A stretch of 64,000 nt of DNA. It comes from an uncultured Rhodospirillales bacterium (GTDB taxonomy: Bacteria > Pseudomonadota > Alphaproteobacteria > Acetobacterales > Acetobacteraceae). The translations under genes and the position numbers were made by a program. Every line of letters starts with the position of its first letter. Positions within the stretch are counted from its first letter, which is position 1. The stretch spans positions 1-64,000 of the forward strand of contig CAILMF010000067.1 of the NCBI GenBank assembly GCA_903835235.1, read 5' to 3'. Under the pieces are notes generated by a model. That model ran no database searches. It saw only the letters and a list, made by a program, of their open reading frames with translations, and had not been told where the DNA came from. Below, one piece after another: positions 14,824 to 37,652 of this stretch.

Positions 14824-16266
14824 ATGACCGAAACCGCACCCGCCTTCACCCGGCAGCAGATCCGCAGCATCATGTTCGGCCTGATGCTGGCGCTTTTCCT
14901 GTCCAGCCTGGACCAGACCATCGTTGCGACAGCGCTCAGCTCCATCGCCAGCGATTTGGGCGGCTGGGAGCGGTTGAGCTGGGTGGTCAGCGCCTACCTG
15001 ATCGCGTCGACCGTGACGACGCCGATCTACGGCCGGCTCAGCGACCTCTATGGCCGGCGGCCGGTACTGCTGGTCTCGGTCGCCGGCTTCGTCTTCGGCG
15101 CGCTGCTCTGCGCGGCGGCGCAGGACATGACGCAGCTGATTTTGGCCCGCGTGGTGCAGGGCCTGGGCGGCGGCGGGCTGCGCAGCGTCTCGCTGGCCGT
15201 GGTCGGCGACATCTTCGCCCCGCGCGAGCGCGCCAAGGTGCAGGGTTACCTCTCCAGCGTCTTCGCCAGCGCCAGCATCGGCGGGCCGATCCTCGGCGGG
15301 TTGTTCTCGGACTACCTCAGCTGGCACTGGATCTTTTTGATCGACGCGCCGCTGGGTGCCGCCGCCTTTGCGCTGACCTACTTCCAGTTGCGGCGCCTGC
15401 CCAAGCCGACACGCCGGCCCGTCATCGACTGGCTGGGCGCGCTGTTCATCCTGCTCTCGGCCACGCCCTTTCTGTTCGGCATTTCCGCGGCGCAGCGGGA
15501 TGGCAGCTTCCTCTCGCCGCTGGCGCTGGGCTGCTTCCTGATGGGCCTGGTCTTCCTGGTGCTGCTGATCAAGACCGAGAAGGTAGCGCCCGAGCCGATG
15601 CTGCCGCCACGGCTGTTCCGCAACCGCGAATTCGTGCTGTCCAACACCATTACCTGCCTGGCCAGCGTGGCCAATATCGGCCTGGTCATCCATATCCCCC
15701 TCGCCTTCCAGCTGATGGCCGGGCTCTCGGCCAAGGATGCCGGCCTCAGGATGATCGCGATCACCATCGGCAGCGTCACCGGCAGCTTCATCGGCGGGCA
15801 GCTGGTCGGGCGGCTCGGCCGCTATCGCTTCGCGCCCATCGTCGGCGCGGCCATCGCCGCCACCATGTGCTTCGTCATCGCCGCCGTCGGCCTCGGCCAC
15901 AACCTGGCCTTCGACATGGGCGCGACGCTGCTGCTGGGCCTGGCCTTCGGCGGCAGCTTCGCGCCGATGACGGTCGCCATCCAGAACGCGGTGGACCCGC
16001 GGGATGGCGGCATCGGCGTGGCCTGCATGATGTTCTTCCGCCTGCTGGGCGGCGCCTTCGGCGTGGCGGCGCTCTCCGCGCTGCTGTTCAACCGGTTGCA
16101 GGCGGCGGTGCCGGGCGGGCTGACCGGCCGCGCGCTGCTGGACGCGGCGGGGCCGCAGGCGCTGGCCGGCGCGTTCCAAGCGGTGTTCATCGCCGCCGGG
16201 CTGGTCATGCTGGTGAACCTGGCCGCCGCGGTTTCGCTGAAGGGGCTACCGCTGCGGACCAGGTAG
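14824..16266 (+). CDS. MFS transporter, EmrB/QacA-type drug exporter
   Basis: 480 aa, many TM helices, SSLDQTIVATALSSIASDLGG, YGRLSDLYGRRPVLL. Confidence 0.9.
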   Translation: MTETAPAFTRQQIRSIMFGLMLALFLSSLDQTIVATALSSIASDLGGWERLSWVVSAYLIASTVTTPIYGRLSDLYGRRPVLLVSVAGFVFGALLCAAAQDMTQLILARVVQGLGGGGLRSVSLAVVGDIFAPRERAKVQGYLSSVFASASIGGPILGGLFSDYLSWHWIFLIDAPLGAAAFALTYFQLRRLPKPTRRPVIDWLGALFILLSATPFLFGISAAQRDGSFLSPLALGCFLMGLVFLVLLIKTEKVAPEPMLPPRLFRNREFVLSNTITCLASVANIGLVIHIPLAFQLMAGLSAKDAGLRMIAITIGSVTGSFIGGQLVGRLGRYRFAPIVGAAIAATMCFVIAAVGLGHNLAFDMGATLLLGLAFGGSFAPMTVAIQNAVDPRDGGIGVACMMFFRLLGGAFGVAALSALLFNRLQAAVPGGLTGRALLDAAGPQALAGAFQAVFIAAGLVMLVNLAAAVSLKGLPLRTR

Positions 16267-16273
16267 CTTGTCT

Positions 16274-16490
16274 GAGCGACTGATTCACCGCTCCGGCCGC
16301 TGCGCGCCTCCGCGGATCAGGCAATTTCCGAGCGACCGATTCACCGCTCCGGCCGCTGCGCGCCTCCGCGGATCAGGCAATTTCCGAGCGACTGATTCAC
16401 CGCTCCGGCCGCTGCGCGCCTTCGCGGATCAGGCAATTTCCGAGCGACTGATTCACCGCTCCGGCCGCTGCGCGCCTTCGCGGATCAGGC
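16274..16490. repeat. 56-bp tandem array, about 3.9 copies
   Basis: Units gagcgactgattcaccgctccggccgctgcgcgcctccgcggatcaggcaatttcc starting at 16274, 16330, 16386, 16442; near-identical. Confidence 0.9.
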
Positions 16491-28379: not shown

Positions 28380-28476
28380 CTTGGGCCTCCTTCGCCGGAA
28401 GCGGCCATGCTTGCCACTGGCGGGGCCGCGCGTGAAGGGCCGGCGCGGCGTGGGAAGGTTTGGGGGGAATGGGCGG

Positions 28477-28729
28477 GGCGGAGGGCGCCGGTTTCGGACA
28501 AATGCCGCGCCCGCGGCGAAGGGCGCCGGTTTCGGACAAATGCCGCGCCCGGGGCGAAGGCGTCGGTTTCGGACGAATGCCGCGCCCGGGGCGAAGGCGT
28601 CGGTTTCGGACGAATGCCACGCCCGGGGTGAAAGGCGCCGGTTCCGGACGAATGCCGCGCCCGGGGCGAAGGCGTCGGTTTCGGACGAATGCCACGCCCG
28701 GGGCGGAGGGCGCCGGTTTCGGACAAACC
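28477..28729. repeat. 37/38-bp tandem array, about 6.7 copies
   Basis: ggcgaaggcgtcggtttcggacgaatgccgcgcccgg and variants, head-to-tail. Confidence 0.9.
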
Positions 28730-33042: not shown

Positions 33043-34581
33043 CTATTGTACCGTGCCCAGCAGGGCGTCCCACATGGACTGCACCGCGCCCACCACCTTG
33101 GCGTTGGCGGCATAGGCCTGCTGCAGCTGGATCATCACGGTCATCTCGTTGTCGACGCTGACGCCGCTTTGGGTGTTGAAGCGCTGCTGCAGCGTGGCCA
33201 GCAGGCCGGCGGCCAGGTCCTTGGCAGTGCCGGCGGCGGCGGCATCGGCGCTGTGCACCGATTCCACCGTGGCGGCGTAGTCCTGCACCGAGACGGCGGG
33301 GTTGATGGTGGAGCTGAGCGTGCCATCCGGCCCCAGCCCCGTGGTGGCGATGCTGGCCCAGCCGGTGCCGGTGGCGGCCTGGGTGCCGAAGGTGAAGTTC
33401 ACCACGTTGTCGATCAGCCCGGCGAAGGCGGCCGGGCCGCCCGGCGGGTTGGGGGTGAAGTTGGTGACGCCGCCGCCGGCGATGCTGACGCTGCGCGTGC
33501 CGTCCCGCACCAGGGTGGGGTTGCCGACCACCGCGGCATTGACCTGGATGGCGCTGGCGAAGCCGAGCTGCCCACCGATGGTATAGGGCTGCGCCATGTC
33601 CGGCACGGTGCCGGCGGGCGCGGTGAACAGCGTCAGGCCTTCCTGGTCGAAGCGGTAGGCCAGCTGGCCCGCGGCGCTGTCGGCCTCGGCCTGGGTGCGC
33701 GGCAGGGTGGTGTCGCGCAGCTCGATCGCGCTGCCCAGCGCGCCGCCGGTCATCTGCCGGGTCACGTCGACGCCGCCCATCATCACGCCGGGCAGGCTGC
33801 CGGCGGGGCCGTAATAGGCGTTGGGGCCGACGGTGGCAGGCGTGATCGCCAGCGTGTCCCTGTTCGGGTCGGTCGGCAGCATGGCGCCGCCCTGGCTCAG
33901 CACCAGCATGTTGCCGTCCGACTGGCGGATGACCTTGACCGCGATGCTGGCGGCCAGGGTCTGCACCGCCTGGTCGCGCTGGTCTTCCAGGTTGGCGGTG
34001 GACTGGCCCTGGATCTGCGCGTGCTGGATCTGCCGGTTCAGCCCACCGATGCTGCGCAGCGCCGCATTCGCCGCCGCGACCTGCTGCACCATGCCGTCCT
34101 GCGCCTGCTGGCGCGCCTTGGTGACGGCCTGGCCGACCTGGTTGAAATCCGTGGCGACGGCGCGGGCGGCGGTGATGGCGTTGCGCTGCGCGCCGGTATC
34201 CTGCGGGCTGCCCTGCAAGGTGATGAAGGCGCTGCGCAGCGTGTTGATGTCATCGGCCAGGGAGGAGTTGCTGTCGGCGCCGGAGACGGTGCCATAGGCG
34301 TCCTGCACGCCCTGCAACAGGCGTTCGCGCAGCGTGGCGGCGGCCTGGTCGGACGTGCTGGCGCCGATCTGCGCCACCACGGCCAGGTCCACCGCGCGCT
34401 GCGCCACGCCGGTGAGGACGCCGGCGGGCTGGCCGTCCAGCGAGCGCGCCTGCTGCTGCACCGTCTTGGCGGTATAGCCGGGGGTCTGCGCATTGCCGAC
34501 ATTGGCGGAGGCCTGCGCCAGCGCACGTTGGACGGCCATAAGACCGCTGCTGGCAATGCCGAGGGCTGCATCGAGGCTCAT
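33043..34581 (-). CDS. flgK: Flagellar hook-associated protein FlgK
   Basis: MSLDAALGIASSGLMAVQRALAQASANVGNAQTPGYTAKTV... Confidence 0.92.
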   Translation of the reverse strand: MSLDAALGIASSGLMAVQRALAQASANVGNAQTPGYTAKTVQQQARSLDGQPAGVLTGVAQRAVDLAVVAQIGASTSDQAAATLRERLLQGVQDAYGTVSGADSNSSLADDINTLRSAFITLQGSPQDTGAQRNAITAARAVATDFNQVGQAVTKARQQAQDGMVQQVAAANAALRSIGGLNRQIQHAQIQGQSTANLEDQRDQAVQTLAASIAVKVIRQSDGNMLVLSQGGAMLPTDPNRDTLAITPATVGPNAYYGPAGSLPGVMMGGVDVTRQMTGGALGSAIELRDTTLPRTQAEADSAAGQLAYRFDQEGLTLFTAPAGTVPDMAQPYTIGGQLGFASAIQVNAAVVGNPTLVRDGTRSVSIAGGGVTNFTPNPPGGPAAFAGLIDNVVNFTFGTQAATGTGWASIATTGLGPDGTLSSTINPAVSVQDYAATVESVHSADAAAAGTAKDLAAGLLATLQQRFNTQSGVSVDNEMTVMIQLQQAYAANAKVVGAVQSMWDALLGTVQ

Positions 34582-34620
34582 GACGTGTCCAGTTTATGGA
34601 AACGGCGGTTAAGGAAGCCT

Positions 34621-34639
34621 GAACCGCGTTTTGCGGTTC
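34621..34639. promoter_or_regulatory. Palindrome upstream of flgK, candidate FlbD-type site
   Basis: gaaccgc-gtttt-gcggttc perfect 7-bp arms 40 bp upstream of flgK ATG. Confidence 0.35.
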
Positions 34640-34776
34640 GTGCCGCTGGCCGCGGGCATCCTGCCCCGCCATCGGCCCGGTGGGCGTCGCTTCCTCGGCG
34701 GCGCCCATCGGCTTGTCTGTGCACCGCGGCGCGGCGGCCCGTGCTGCCCCCTTGGGCGCGGCACGCGTCGCGTCAG

Positions 34777-34902
34777 CGGCTCATGTTGCCCGCCGCGGAG
34801 CGGCACGAGGCGCGCCAGCGGCTCATGTTGCCCGCCGCGGAGCGGCACGAGGCGCGCCAGCGGCTCATGTTGCCCGCCGCGGAGCGGCACGAGGCGCGCT
34901 AG
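34777..34902. repeat. 42-bp tandem array x3 continuing into flgE 3' end
   Basis: cggctcatgttgcccgccgcggagcggcacgaggcgcgccag at 34777, 34819, 34861; then cggctcat(a)tt of flgE. Confidence 0.95.
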
Positions 34903-36203
34903 CGGCTCATATTTATCGTGTCCTGCAGCATCTGGTCGGTGGTGGTGACGATCTTGGTGTTGGCGCTGTAGGCGCGCTGGGCCACGATCAGCTTGCTGAA
35001 CTCGGTGGCGATGTCGACATTCGACGCCTCCGTGCTGCCGACCACCAGCTTGCCGGCACCGTTTGAGGAGGCATCGTAGGTCCGCGCGCTGCCGCTCAGG
35101 CTGGTGGCCATGAAGGCCTGGCCGTCCAGCCGTTGCAGCTGGTCGGGCTCGTTGAAGGTCACCAGCGGCACGCGGGCGATCAGCCGGCTCTGGCCGTTGT
35201 CGTAGTTGACCATCACGTTGCCATTGTCCTGGATGGCGATGCCGGCATAGGCGCCCTGCGGCACGCCGTTCTGCACCAGGTTGGTGACGTTCAGCGTGGT
35301 GCCGGCGAACTGGGTCAGCCCGTTGGACTGGCCGAAGGTGCCCAGGTTCATCGTCACGGTCTGCGCGCCCTGGCCGAAATCCGCGGTGAAGGTGAAGTTG
35401 GCGGGATTGCCCGCGCCCGGCGTGGCGGTGGGGGTGATGCTGCCGGTGGCGGCGGCCAGGTCGCCGACCGTGCCATCCGTGACCGCCGGCGTGGCGCCGA
35501 TGCCGAAATCCACCTTCACCGTGCCGCGGCCGGCGGCGGCCACGTCGTCCGGCACGTTCACCGCCAGGGTCCAGCTGTTGGCGGCGCCGGGGGTGAAGTT
35601 GAGGGTGACCGTGTGCTGCCGGCCCAGCGTGTCGTAGACCTGGACCTGGGTGGTGACCGGGTTGGTGGTGGCATCCGCCGGCAGGTTGGCCTGCAGGTCC
35701 ATGGTGCTGGTGGCGATGGGGTTGAAGGTTTGCTGCGAAACCTGGATCGGCGCGATGCCGGTGCGGTTCAGCACGCCGGCGCTGTCGGCGGTCCAGCCTT
35801 GCAGGTAGTAGCCGCTGCCATTGACCAGGTAGCCGTCCTTGTCCTGCGAGAAGTTGCCGGACCGGGTGTAGAATTGGCGCTGGTCGAAGGTGGGCTGGCC
35901 GTTGGCGGTGCCGTTGCTGGCCGCCACCGCGAAGAAGCCCTGGCCGCCAATGGCCAGCGCCAGCGGGTTCTGGCTTTGCTGCAAGGTGCCTTGCAGACTG
36001 TTCTGGTAGTCTGGCCGGGCCAGCACCGCGCCGCTTTCGCTGGTGGTCCGGGTGGACTGGGTGATGTAGTCGATGAAGTTGGCGTCCACGCGCTTGAAGC
36101 CGGTGGTCTGGCTGTTGGCGACGTTGTCCGAGATGTAGCCCAAGGCCGCGCTTTGGGCGTTGAGGCCGCTGATGGCGGTGGTGAGCGCGCCGAACAAGGA
36201 CAT
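34899..36203 (-). CDS. flgE: Flagellar hook protein FlgE
   Basis: MSLFGALTTAISGLNAQSAALGYISDNVANSQTTGFKRVDANF; start trimmed from a 1714-aa ORF. Confidence 0.92.
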   Translation of the reverse strand: MSLFGALTTAISGLNAQSAALGYISDNVANSQTTGFKRVDANFIDYITQSTRTTSESGAVLARPDYQNSLQGTLQQSQNPLALAIGGQGFFAVAASNGTANGQPTFDQRQFYTRSGNFSQDKDGYLVNGSGYYLQGWTADSAGVLNRTGIAPIQVSQQTFNPIATSTMDLQANLPADATTNPVTTQVQVYDTLGRQHTVTLNFTPGAANSWTLAVNVPDDVAAAGRGTVKVDFGIGATPAVTDGTVGDLAAATGSITPTATPGAGNPANFTFTADFGQGAQTVTMNLGTFGQSNGLTQFAGTTLNVTNLVQNGVPQGAYAGIAIQDNGNVMVNYDNGQSRLIARVPLVTFNEPDQLQRLDGQAFMATSLSGSARTYDASSNGAGKLVVGSTEASNVDIATEFSKLIVAQRAYSANTKIVTTTDQMLQDTINMSR

Positions 36204-36239
36204 GTCGAAGGCTCCGCAGGAGTTGGTTCGCCGGGGATG

Positions 36240-36255
36240 TGCAGGCGGCGTGCCA
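36240..36255 (-). promoter_or_regulatory. Sigma54-type promoter for flgE
   Basis: Minus strand TGGCACGCCGCCTGCA, GG-N10-GC, 36 bp from flgE ATG. Confidence 0.7.
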
Positions 36256-36351
36256 GCGGAATCGCGGGGTTTGGCGGTGCTTCCGTGCCGGGTGGCGGCA
36301 GTTGTTGCCGGGCGGGCGGCAAGCCTGGCCGACCTGGGGCGGCAAAACCGC

Positions 36352-36367
36352 TGGCACGGGGCGTGCA
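36352..36367 (+). promoter_or_regulatory. Sigma54-type promoter for fliK-flgD
   Basis: TGGCACGGGGCGTGCA, GG-N10-GC, 28 bp from fliK ATG. Confidence 0.7.
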
Positions 36368-36395
36368 GTGCCCTGGCTGACCGGATGGAATCGCC

Positions 36396-37652
36396 ATGGC
36401 AGCCGCCGCAACACCGCCCACCCCCGCCCAGAATGGGCCCTCGCCGGGAAATGCCCGGGCCGCCGCAGCAACGCGGCCGGCGGGTGAACATCGGTTCGCG
36501 GCGCTGCTGACCAAAGGCGACGCCCCTGCCCCGCCCGCCAATATGGCGGCGGGCCAGGTGCCGCCGGTTGCCGAAGCCACGCCCGGCACCGGGCCGGCCC
36601 CGCAGGACGCGGCGCCGGCGGTGCTGGCGGCACGGCTGGACGCGGGCAAGGTGGCGGCACCCTCGGGCGCCACGGCCGCAACGGCCGCAGCGGCTGCCAC
36701 GGCCGCAGCGGCCGAGGCCGCGACCACCGAGGGCGCGCCGGCAGCGGCCGAGCCCGGCGCCCTGGCTGCCGCGCTGGCGGCAGGGCCGCTGGGGGCCAAG
36801 CTGGCCAAGGCAGCGCCACGCAACGGCAAAGCCGAGGCCGATGCCACCGACGGTGCCGAGACCACGCTGGCCACCGTCAGCCCCGATGCGGCCATGCCAA
36901 CCCCGTTGCCGGCCACCGCGCCGCCACCACCCCCGCCTCCTCAGACGACCCACCCGGCACAGGCTGCGGGCGAGGCCGCCGCGCCCGCCAGGTCCGGTGG
37001 CCTGGAGCGGCCCGAGCCTCGGCCGGCCGTGACCATGGCGGAAAAGCCCGCCGCCCGCGCGCCGCGTGCCGTCGAGGCCGCCCCGCCAATCGAAGCCCCG
37101 GCCGCCCCGGCCGCGGCATCCGCGCGGGAGGCAGCGCCGCCGCCGCCTGCCCCGGCCCCGCCGGCCCCGCCCGAGGCGACCCAGGCCGCCGCCCCGGCCC
37201 GGCATGCGCCCATGGCCTCGCCGGCGCACCAGGTGGCGCCGGTGGTGGTGGCCGTGGCGCTGGGCCAGGGCAGCGGCTCCACCCTGACGGTGCGGCTGAC
37301 GCCCGGCGAATTGGGCCAGGTGGAGGTGCGGATCGAGCGCCCGGCCGATGGCAGCGCGGCGCAGGTGAAGGTGGTGGCGGAACGGCCGGAGACGCTGGCG
37401 CTGCTGCAACGGGACGCGCCGGAGCTGGGCCGCGCGCTGCAACAGGCCGGCATCGCGCAGGATAATTGCCGGCTCAGCTTCAGCCTGGGCGGCGACCAGG
37501 GTAGCGGCGCCGGCGACGGCAGCGCCCGCAACCAGGGCGCGCCGCAGCAACAGGGTGGCGGCCAGGGCTGGGGCGGCCGTCAGGGCCGCCTTGCCAGCGC
37601 CGAACTGCCACCACCGCGCCAGGCGCTGAGCCTGCTCGACATGTCCATCTGA
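36396..37652 (+). CDS. fliK: Flagellar hook-length control protein FliK
   Basis: Ala/Pro-rich N-terminus; C-terminal LTVRLTPGELGQVEVRIERPADGSAAQVKVVAERPETLALLQRDAPELGRALQQAG. Confidence 0.88.
   Translation: MAAAATPPTPAQNGPSPGNARAAAATRPAGEHRFAALLTKGDAPAPPANMAAGQVPPVAEATPGTGPAPQDAAPAVLAARLDAGKVAAPSGATAATAAAAATAAAAEAATTEGAPAAAEPGALAAALAAGPLGAKLAKAAPRNGKAEADATDGAETTLATVSPDAAMPTPLPATAPPPPPPPQTTHPAQAAGEAAAPARSGGLERPEPRPAVTMAEKPAARAPRAVEAAPPIEAPAAPAAASAREAAPPPPAPAPPAPPEATQAAAPARHAPMASPAHQVAPVVVAVALGQGSGSTLTVRLTPGELGQVEVRIERPADGSAAQVKVVAERPETLALLQRDAPELGRALQQAGIAQDNCRLSFSLGGDQGSGAGDGSARNQGAPQQQGGGQGWGGRQGRLASAELPPPRQALSLLDMSI

Follow-up and report, generated by a model that had tools for sequence, protein, structure and literature searches.

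The described systems closest to the repeat array reported here, which lies behind the flagellar hook gene flgE of an uncultured Rhodospirillales bacterium of the Acetobacteraceae, are bacterial minisatellites (VNTR), MIRUs, REP/BIME sequences and template-switch mutations. Minisatellites are head-to-tail direct repeats of about 10–100 bp, and the flgE array, with three near-identical units and one decayed unit of 42 bp, corresponds to this description. The likeness extends to unit sizes of 20–60 bp, to near-identical proximal and decayed distal copies, to variation between species and to the high density of arrays in this genome. The flgE array differs from minisatellites in that its unit appears to derive from the 3' end of the gene itself and contains the stop codon, and the arrays of this group differ in that the same gene ends are struck repeatedly in different species, with species-specific copies.

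The MIRUs of mycobacteria (senX3-regX3 intergenic repeats; Supply 1997, via PMC12548453) resemble the flgE array in being tandem repeats in an operon junction that touch the stop or start codon of a neighbouring gene, but they are dispersed and apparently mobile, insert at start codons and have a coupled short ORF, whereas the flgE unit is confined to this site and stems from the local gene. REP/BIME sequences share with the flgE unit the alternating inverted arms (GCCGC/GCGGC) after a gene end and a possible effect on the mRNA 3' end, and differ from it in being dispersed. The filler between copies, which in several cases holds an inverted copy of the gene tail, recalls template-switch (quasipalindrome) mutations (PMC8794818, PMC7202029); the likeness is limited in that the inverted copy in the flgE spacer studied here is not significant (p 0.35) and other arrays are plain tandem repeats without filler.

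The analysed stretch of DNA (the window, 64,000 nucleotides) carries the flgE-flgK junction on the minus strand, with the following features:

34899–36203, minus strand: flgE, flagellar hook protein, ending ...QDTINMSR-TAG (Pfam FlgE_D2, LlgE_F_G_D1 and Flg_bbr_C)
34899–34901, minus strand: flgE stop codon TAG, at the ancestral stop position
34888–34911, minus strand: quasi-palindrome TATGAG.CGC-TAGC-GCG.CTCGTG, the loop of which holds the flgE stop codon
34857–34898, minus strand: 42-bp unit 1, ending NMSR-TGG
34876–34888, minus strand: second hairpin of each unit, GCCGC-TCC-GCGGC (unit 1 copy; it recurs every 42 bp)
34815–34856, minus strand: 42-bp unit 2, identical to unit 1, ending TGG
34773–34814, minus strand: 42-bp unit 3, 41/42 identical with a difference at the last base, ending TGA
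34731–34772, minus strand: decayed unit 4, 30/42, in register with units 1–3, ending CGC
33043–34581, minus strand: flgK, the next gene downstream on the same strand (Pfam FlgK_D1)

The flgE product is 77–94% identical to its same-genus orthologues; its start is inferred, from MSLFGALTTAIS upstream of the aligned part. Read on the minus strand, its last codons are aat-atg-agc-cgc-TAG. A first-pass annotation had described a TAG/TGG/TGG/TGA series after flgE, and re-reading of the three 42-bp units at 34773–34898 confirmed it; the decayed fourth unit had been overlooked, and its 30 of 42 matches compare with a mean of 14.8 and a maximum of 23 in 2000 shuffles. Tandem Repeats Finder reported a period of 42, 3.6 copies, 96% matches and a score of 278. 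The further claim that the units copy the flgE 3' end holds for the last 15 bp of each, AAYATGAGCCGCTRG, and fails for the other 27 bp, a spacer which contains its own hairpin and is not flgE sequence. An assembly artefact, which the same annotation had named as a possible refutation, is unlikely, because the sister species (G005) carries a diverged array at the same place. Downstream, the flgK leader (34582–34643, minus strand) is conserved in the genus, with the hairpin AACCGCAAAACGCGGTT followed by TTAACCGCC...CTGGA; its TTAACC resembles a CtrA half-site.

All three units continue the reading frame of flgE, and beyond TAG this frame has no further stop for 41 codons, until the distal TGA is reached; two readings of this frame had been put forward. 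One holds that FlgE was formerly longer, ended at the distal TGA and was shortened by a TGG-to-TAG mutation. The position of the FlgE end, however, was constant within one or two codons across the approximately 80 relatives fetched, the match to the Pfam domain Flg_bbr_C stops at residue 420 of a query of 422 residues, two residues before the stop, and G005, whose FlgE is 94% identical, also ends in NMSR-TAG, with CAG at the internal stop equivalents. Because relatives end there, G005 shares the TAG and the domain ends at that position, these comparisons indicate that TAG is the true flgE stop and not a recent truncation; flgE arrays that are out of frame in relatives also argue against a longer ancestral protein, which is highly improbable. 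The other reading, that stop-codon read-through adds RASCRSAAGNMSRW repeats to some hook subunits, has next to no probability: the frame is conserved neither at 3'-end arrays in general, the periods of which are spread evenly over 0, 1 and 2 modulo 3 in this genome, nor at the flgE arrays of relatives, several of which are out of frame, and the array of another species of the genus (G003) has a TGA in every copy. Moreover, the FlgE C-terminus packs in the D0 core of the hook, where a long extension would probably interfere. For annotation, the lesson is that a repeat array behind a stop codon is not in itself a sign of truncation or read-through.

The age of the array was examined in targeted same-genus orthologues, with one genome per species and the window's genome designated G000. 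In G005, the closest species with a flgE match, TAG precedes two diverged 42-bp copies, both of which end in CAG, and the stop-codon quasi-palindrome has a perfect 10-bp stem. The flgE end of G003 has an array of its own, with 33/30-bp units, that of G004 has one decayed copy at most, and no tail copy was found at that of G001. Both unit number and unit sequence thus differ between species, as judged from one genome each. On the evidence of the TAG and the 42-bp copies of G005, with their CAG internal stop equivalents, the flgE array predates the split of the window species from G005. The window copies read AACATGAGCCGC, as do the gene tails of G005 and G004, and the window flgE itself now reads AATATG (AAT); since the copies keep AACATGAGCCGC while the gene changed, the array is older than the AAT change. 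The near-identity of units 1–3 points to later expansion or homogenisation.

Copies of gene tails were also searched for in 1.18 Mb of the 5.97-Mb genome (20%, in 20-kb stretches), with genes called by a simple GC-based or codon-based script. At a threshold of at least 15/18 within 200 bp, the tail with its stop codon was copied at 6 of 883 gene ends against 0.35 expected from permuted pairs; a stricter gene call gave 5 copied ends against 0.42 expected within 150 bp. Besides flgE, about nine unrelated genes in this sample have their last 15–40 bp and the stop codon copied downstream, and the families assigned by Pfam are functionally unrelated. They include:

aminotransferase (DegT) end: exact copies of GCGCGTCATCGCGCACGGGTAG
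OmpA-family lipoprotein end: tail copied downstream
SDR enzyme end: tail copies separated by filler
aldehyde dehydrogenase end: tail copies separated by filler
AAA ATPase end: exact 29-bp units reaching beyond the end of the contig; this case came from the tandem-repeat scan
phage capsid gene end: 24-bp units with TAG/TGG/TGA, the same series as at flgE

The earlier proposal of a slippage expansion seeded at the flgE terminus is therefore broadly borne out, as one case of a genome-wide pattern. In comparison samples, copied ends numbered 0 in Roseococcus, 0 in another member of the family, 1 in another member of the class and 0 in E. coli K-12 (approximately 1,140 ends). Tandem arrays of any kind numbered 89 in the 1.18 Mb, or 75 per Mb, and 23 in 0.4 Mb, or 57 per Mb, in Roseococcus; they were rare in the other samples, with 5 per Mb in two other alphaproteobacterial samples (2 arrays each) and 10 per Mb (3 arrays) in E. 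coli. No description of gene-tail arrays was found in the open-licence literature, and it is this class of arrays, not the hook protein, that is the interesting part of the finding.

Other repeats were recorded along with these arrays. The end of contig C19 (locus L133) lies inside an exact 29-bp gene-tail array; because contig C52 opens with the same repeat (C52:1-87), the assembly is broken at this array, which is probably longer than assembled. Within the window, a 56-bp unit is repeated 3.9 times with 98% matches at 16274–16490, beginning 8 bp beyond the stop codon of a gene that resembles MFS-type transporter genes (14824–16266, plus strand); this unit is no copy of the gene tail and contains CTGATTCACCGC, which has 7 occurrences outside genes in the 1.18 Mb. 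A 37-bp unit is repeated 6.7 times at 28474–28727, and its core, TTTCGGACRAATG, recurs in further arrays of this genome (L156, L162) but is absent from the four other genomes sampled. A dispersed REP-like motif, GGCGTGAATCGG, has 21 copies genome-wide (for example at C1:288273, C10:10871 and C54:108114) against 1 for a reversed control; it is also present in Roseococcus and often lies inside palindromic tandem units.

The arrays avoided gene 5' ends. Sixteen non-coding arrays touch gene 3' ends and none touches a 5' end, against 12.3 and 7.3 contacts expected from random non-coding placement, or 4.2 and 3.6 if intrusion is limited to 45 bp; the 5' figure is the softer one, gene starts being less certain than stops in these calls. 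About nine of the sixteen copy the gene tail, and flgE comes in addition, its array having been counted as intergenic in this test, in which the script missed flgE. The period was divisible by three in 39 of 46 arrays inside genes versus 5 of the 16 at gene 3' ends. This asymmetry and loss of frame are as predicted by tolerance after stop codons together with purifying selection at starts and at frame-shifting positions.

Orthologous gene ends within the genus displayed gain, loss and re-copying. At the AAA ATPase end, copies are present in four of five species, and the first copy matches the species' own tail at 21/21 positions in G000, G005 and G002 and at 17/21 in G003. At the DegT end, arrays are confined to G000 and G003 among the species compared, and in each of the two the first copy matches its own tail at 18/18 positions. 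Wherever an array is present at these two ends, the first copy fits the tail of its own species best, exactly so in five of six species-gene cases. Two 46-bp units follow the SDR gene in G000 and are absent in G005, and both copies equal the G005 gene tail at 15/15 positions. From these own-species copies, gains and losses it follows that some gene ends are struck repeatedly, or that tail and copies exchange sequence; the own-species matches would imply repeated re-copying.

The flgE end itself is a recurrent target. Copies of the flgE tail follow the gene in about 14 of the 80 relatives, in roughly six Acetobacteraceae lineages, and the FlgE tree requires at least eight changes of state. Often a hairpin surrounds the stop codon: several lineages have a quasi-palindrome with the stop in its loop, and a second hairpin behind it. 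Copies of at least 15/18 were found at 5 of 78 flgE ends versus 0 of 238 other ends in the same loci, a difference with a chance of about 1 in 1,000 by our own arithmetic; other gene ends form the comparison set here, and a permuted control among relatives is contaminated by homology. The hairpin TGCCGCTCCGCGGC is present at the flgE junction of the window, of R. rosulenta and of Roseococcus suduntuyensis, and almost nowhere else in those genomes. The Roseococcus suduntuyensis junction (L079 4249-4431) has four such hairpins, 24 bp apart, between the flgE stop and the tail copy. The over-representation of flgE and the shared hairpin hint at a hotspot or at selection.

A rival reading is that the junction carries a functional RNA element, made of the stop-loop hairpin and the second hairpin and multiplied by the array, that stabilises the flgE mRNA 3' end or dampens read-through into flgK. 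This is unlikely, though it has several observations in its favour in addition to the occurrence of the same hairpin in three separated clades: in a set of 14 units taken from several lineages, 90% of cells are paired in the two helices, against 20–62% for slid versions of the helices, and double changes are seen at 5 of the 12 pairs; junctions with arrays also fold somewhat better than shuffles and other junctions (mean z -1.35 vs -0.45, p 0.03). However, the window junction folds no better than its shuffles (z -0.65), its stop hairpin has a C-C mismatch, and most relatives have junctions of 15–60 bp without such an element. The pairing was not taken as proof of function, because the choice of units and alignment was made by eye, copies that share ancestry are not independent, and a single template-switching event can produce both stems and compensatory changes (PMC8794818); lineage-specific inverted copies likewise give paired arms without selection. 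Rfam returned no match up to E 1 over 34000–36500, and no intrinsic terminator was found on the minus strand, the sole match being on the plus strand (34677–34711). Genome-wide, stop-codon hairpins were not in excess (26 vs 31 expected at 6/8 pairs), perfect ones numbered 3 against 0.3 expected, and CCGC-NNN-GCGG hairpins outside genes showed no marked preference for TCC in the loop.

It is very unlikely that the array goes back to the insertion of a mobile palindromic element (REP, MIRU or MITE type) behind flgE, with duplication of the target site. Units of the spacer type do look like tail, filler and tail, as after a target duplication, and the genome does carry dispersed palindromic repeats. 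Against this, no copy of the 28-bp unit core was found outside the flgE array in the 5.97-Mb genome with up to 3 mismatches, the 14-bp hairpin, with 3 copies in the array, is present at only 2 other places, and the fillers differ from gene to gene. A MIRU-like element was rejected on the confinement of the core to a single junction, REP/BIME on the near-absence of the hairpin elsewhere, and any dispersed-element origin on the lack of other copies of the unit.

Set beside the observed anatomy and age of the array, the genome-wide pattern, the loss of frame, the 5'/3' asymmetry and the own-species copying, the reading that we consider likely is that the flgE array is a gene-tail minisatellite, which arose by local duplication of the flgE 3' end and is tolerated after stop codons. 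A short segment, from the last codons across the stop, would have been copied downstream of flgE, and the spacer would have been filled by hairpin sequence, in G005 recognisably by an inverted tail copy. Slippage or unequal exchange would then have added further copies and kept them alike, with decay of the older ones at the distal end. The gene would remain unharmed: duplications just after a stop would be tolerated because the first copy still supplies the true C-terminus and stop codon, whereas duplications across a start would be removed and duplications within genes would have to preserve the frame. Such copying occurs at many unrelated genes in this genome and recurrently at the same gene ends in relatives.

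We infer slippage and template switching as the molecular steps, and likewise neutrality. The plain tandem copies without filler at the capsid, AAA ATPase and aminotransferase ends point to slippage or unequal exchange. Copies are parted by filler at the flgE, aldehyde dehydrogenase and SDR ends, and an inverted tail copy in the filler was significant in 3 of 10 cases tested, namely flgE of G005 (10/12, p 0.002), aldehyde dehydrogenase (10/12, p 0.006) and SDR (9/12, p 0.03), a result suggestive of template switching; no significant copy was present in the window spacer or in the six further flgE junctions of this test. In the genome sample, inverted tail copies within 150 bp downstream were not significantly enriched (5 vs 2.5 expected).

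In conclusion, neutrality is most likely for the array, and there is a modest chance of an RNA-level role for the flgE hairpins. It is possible, though doubtful, that in this Acetobacteraceae branch 3' ends are a preferred substrate of local copying, which time and again duplicates the coding tail with its stop and in which tail and copies evolve in concert and supply C-terminal extensions, and that the flgE stop hairpin is retained for an effect on hook-gene mRNA. Gene-end arrays provide a natural assay of short tandem duplication in bacteria, in which the sequence itself shows where an array lies with respect to start and stop, whether frame is lost and whether copies come from their own species; should the process act back on the coding tail, C-termini would change by this route.
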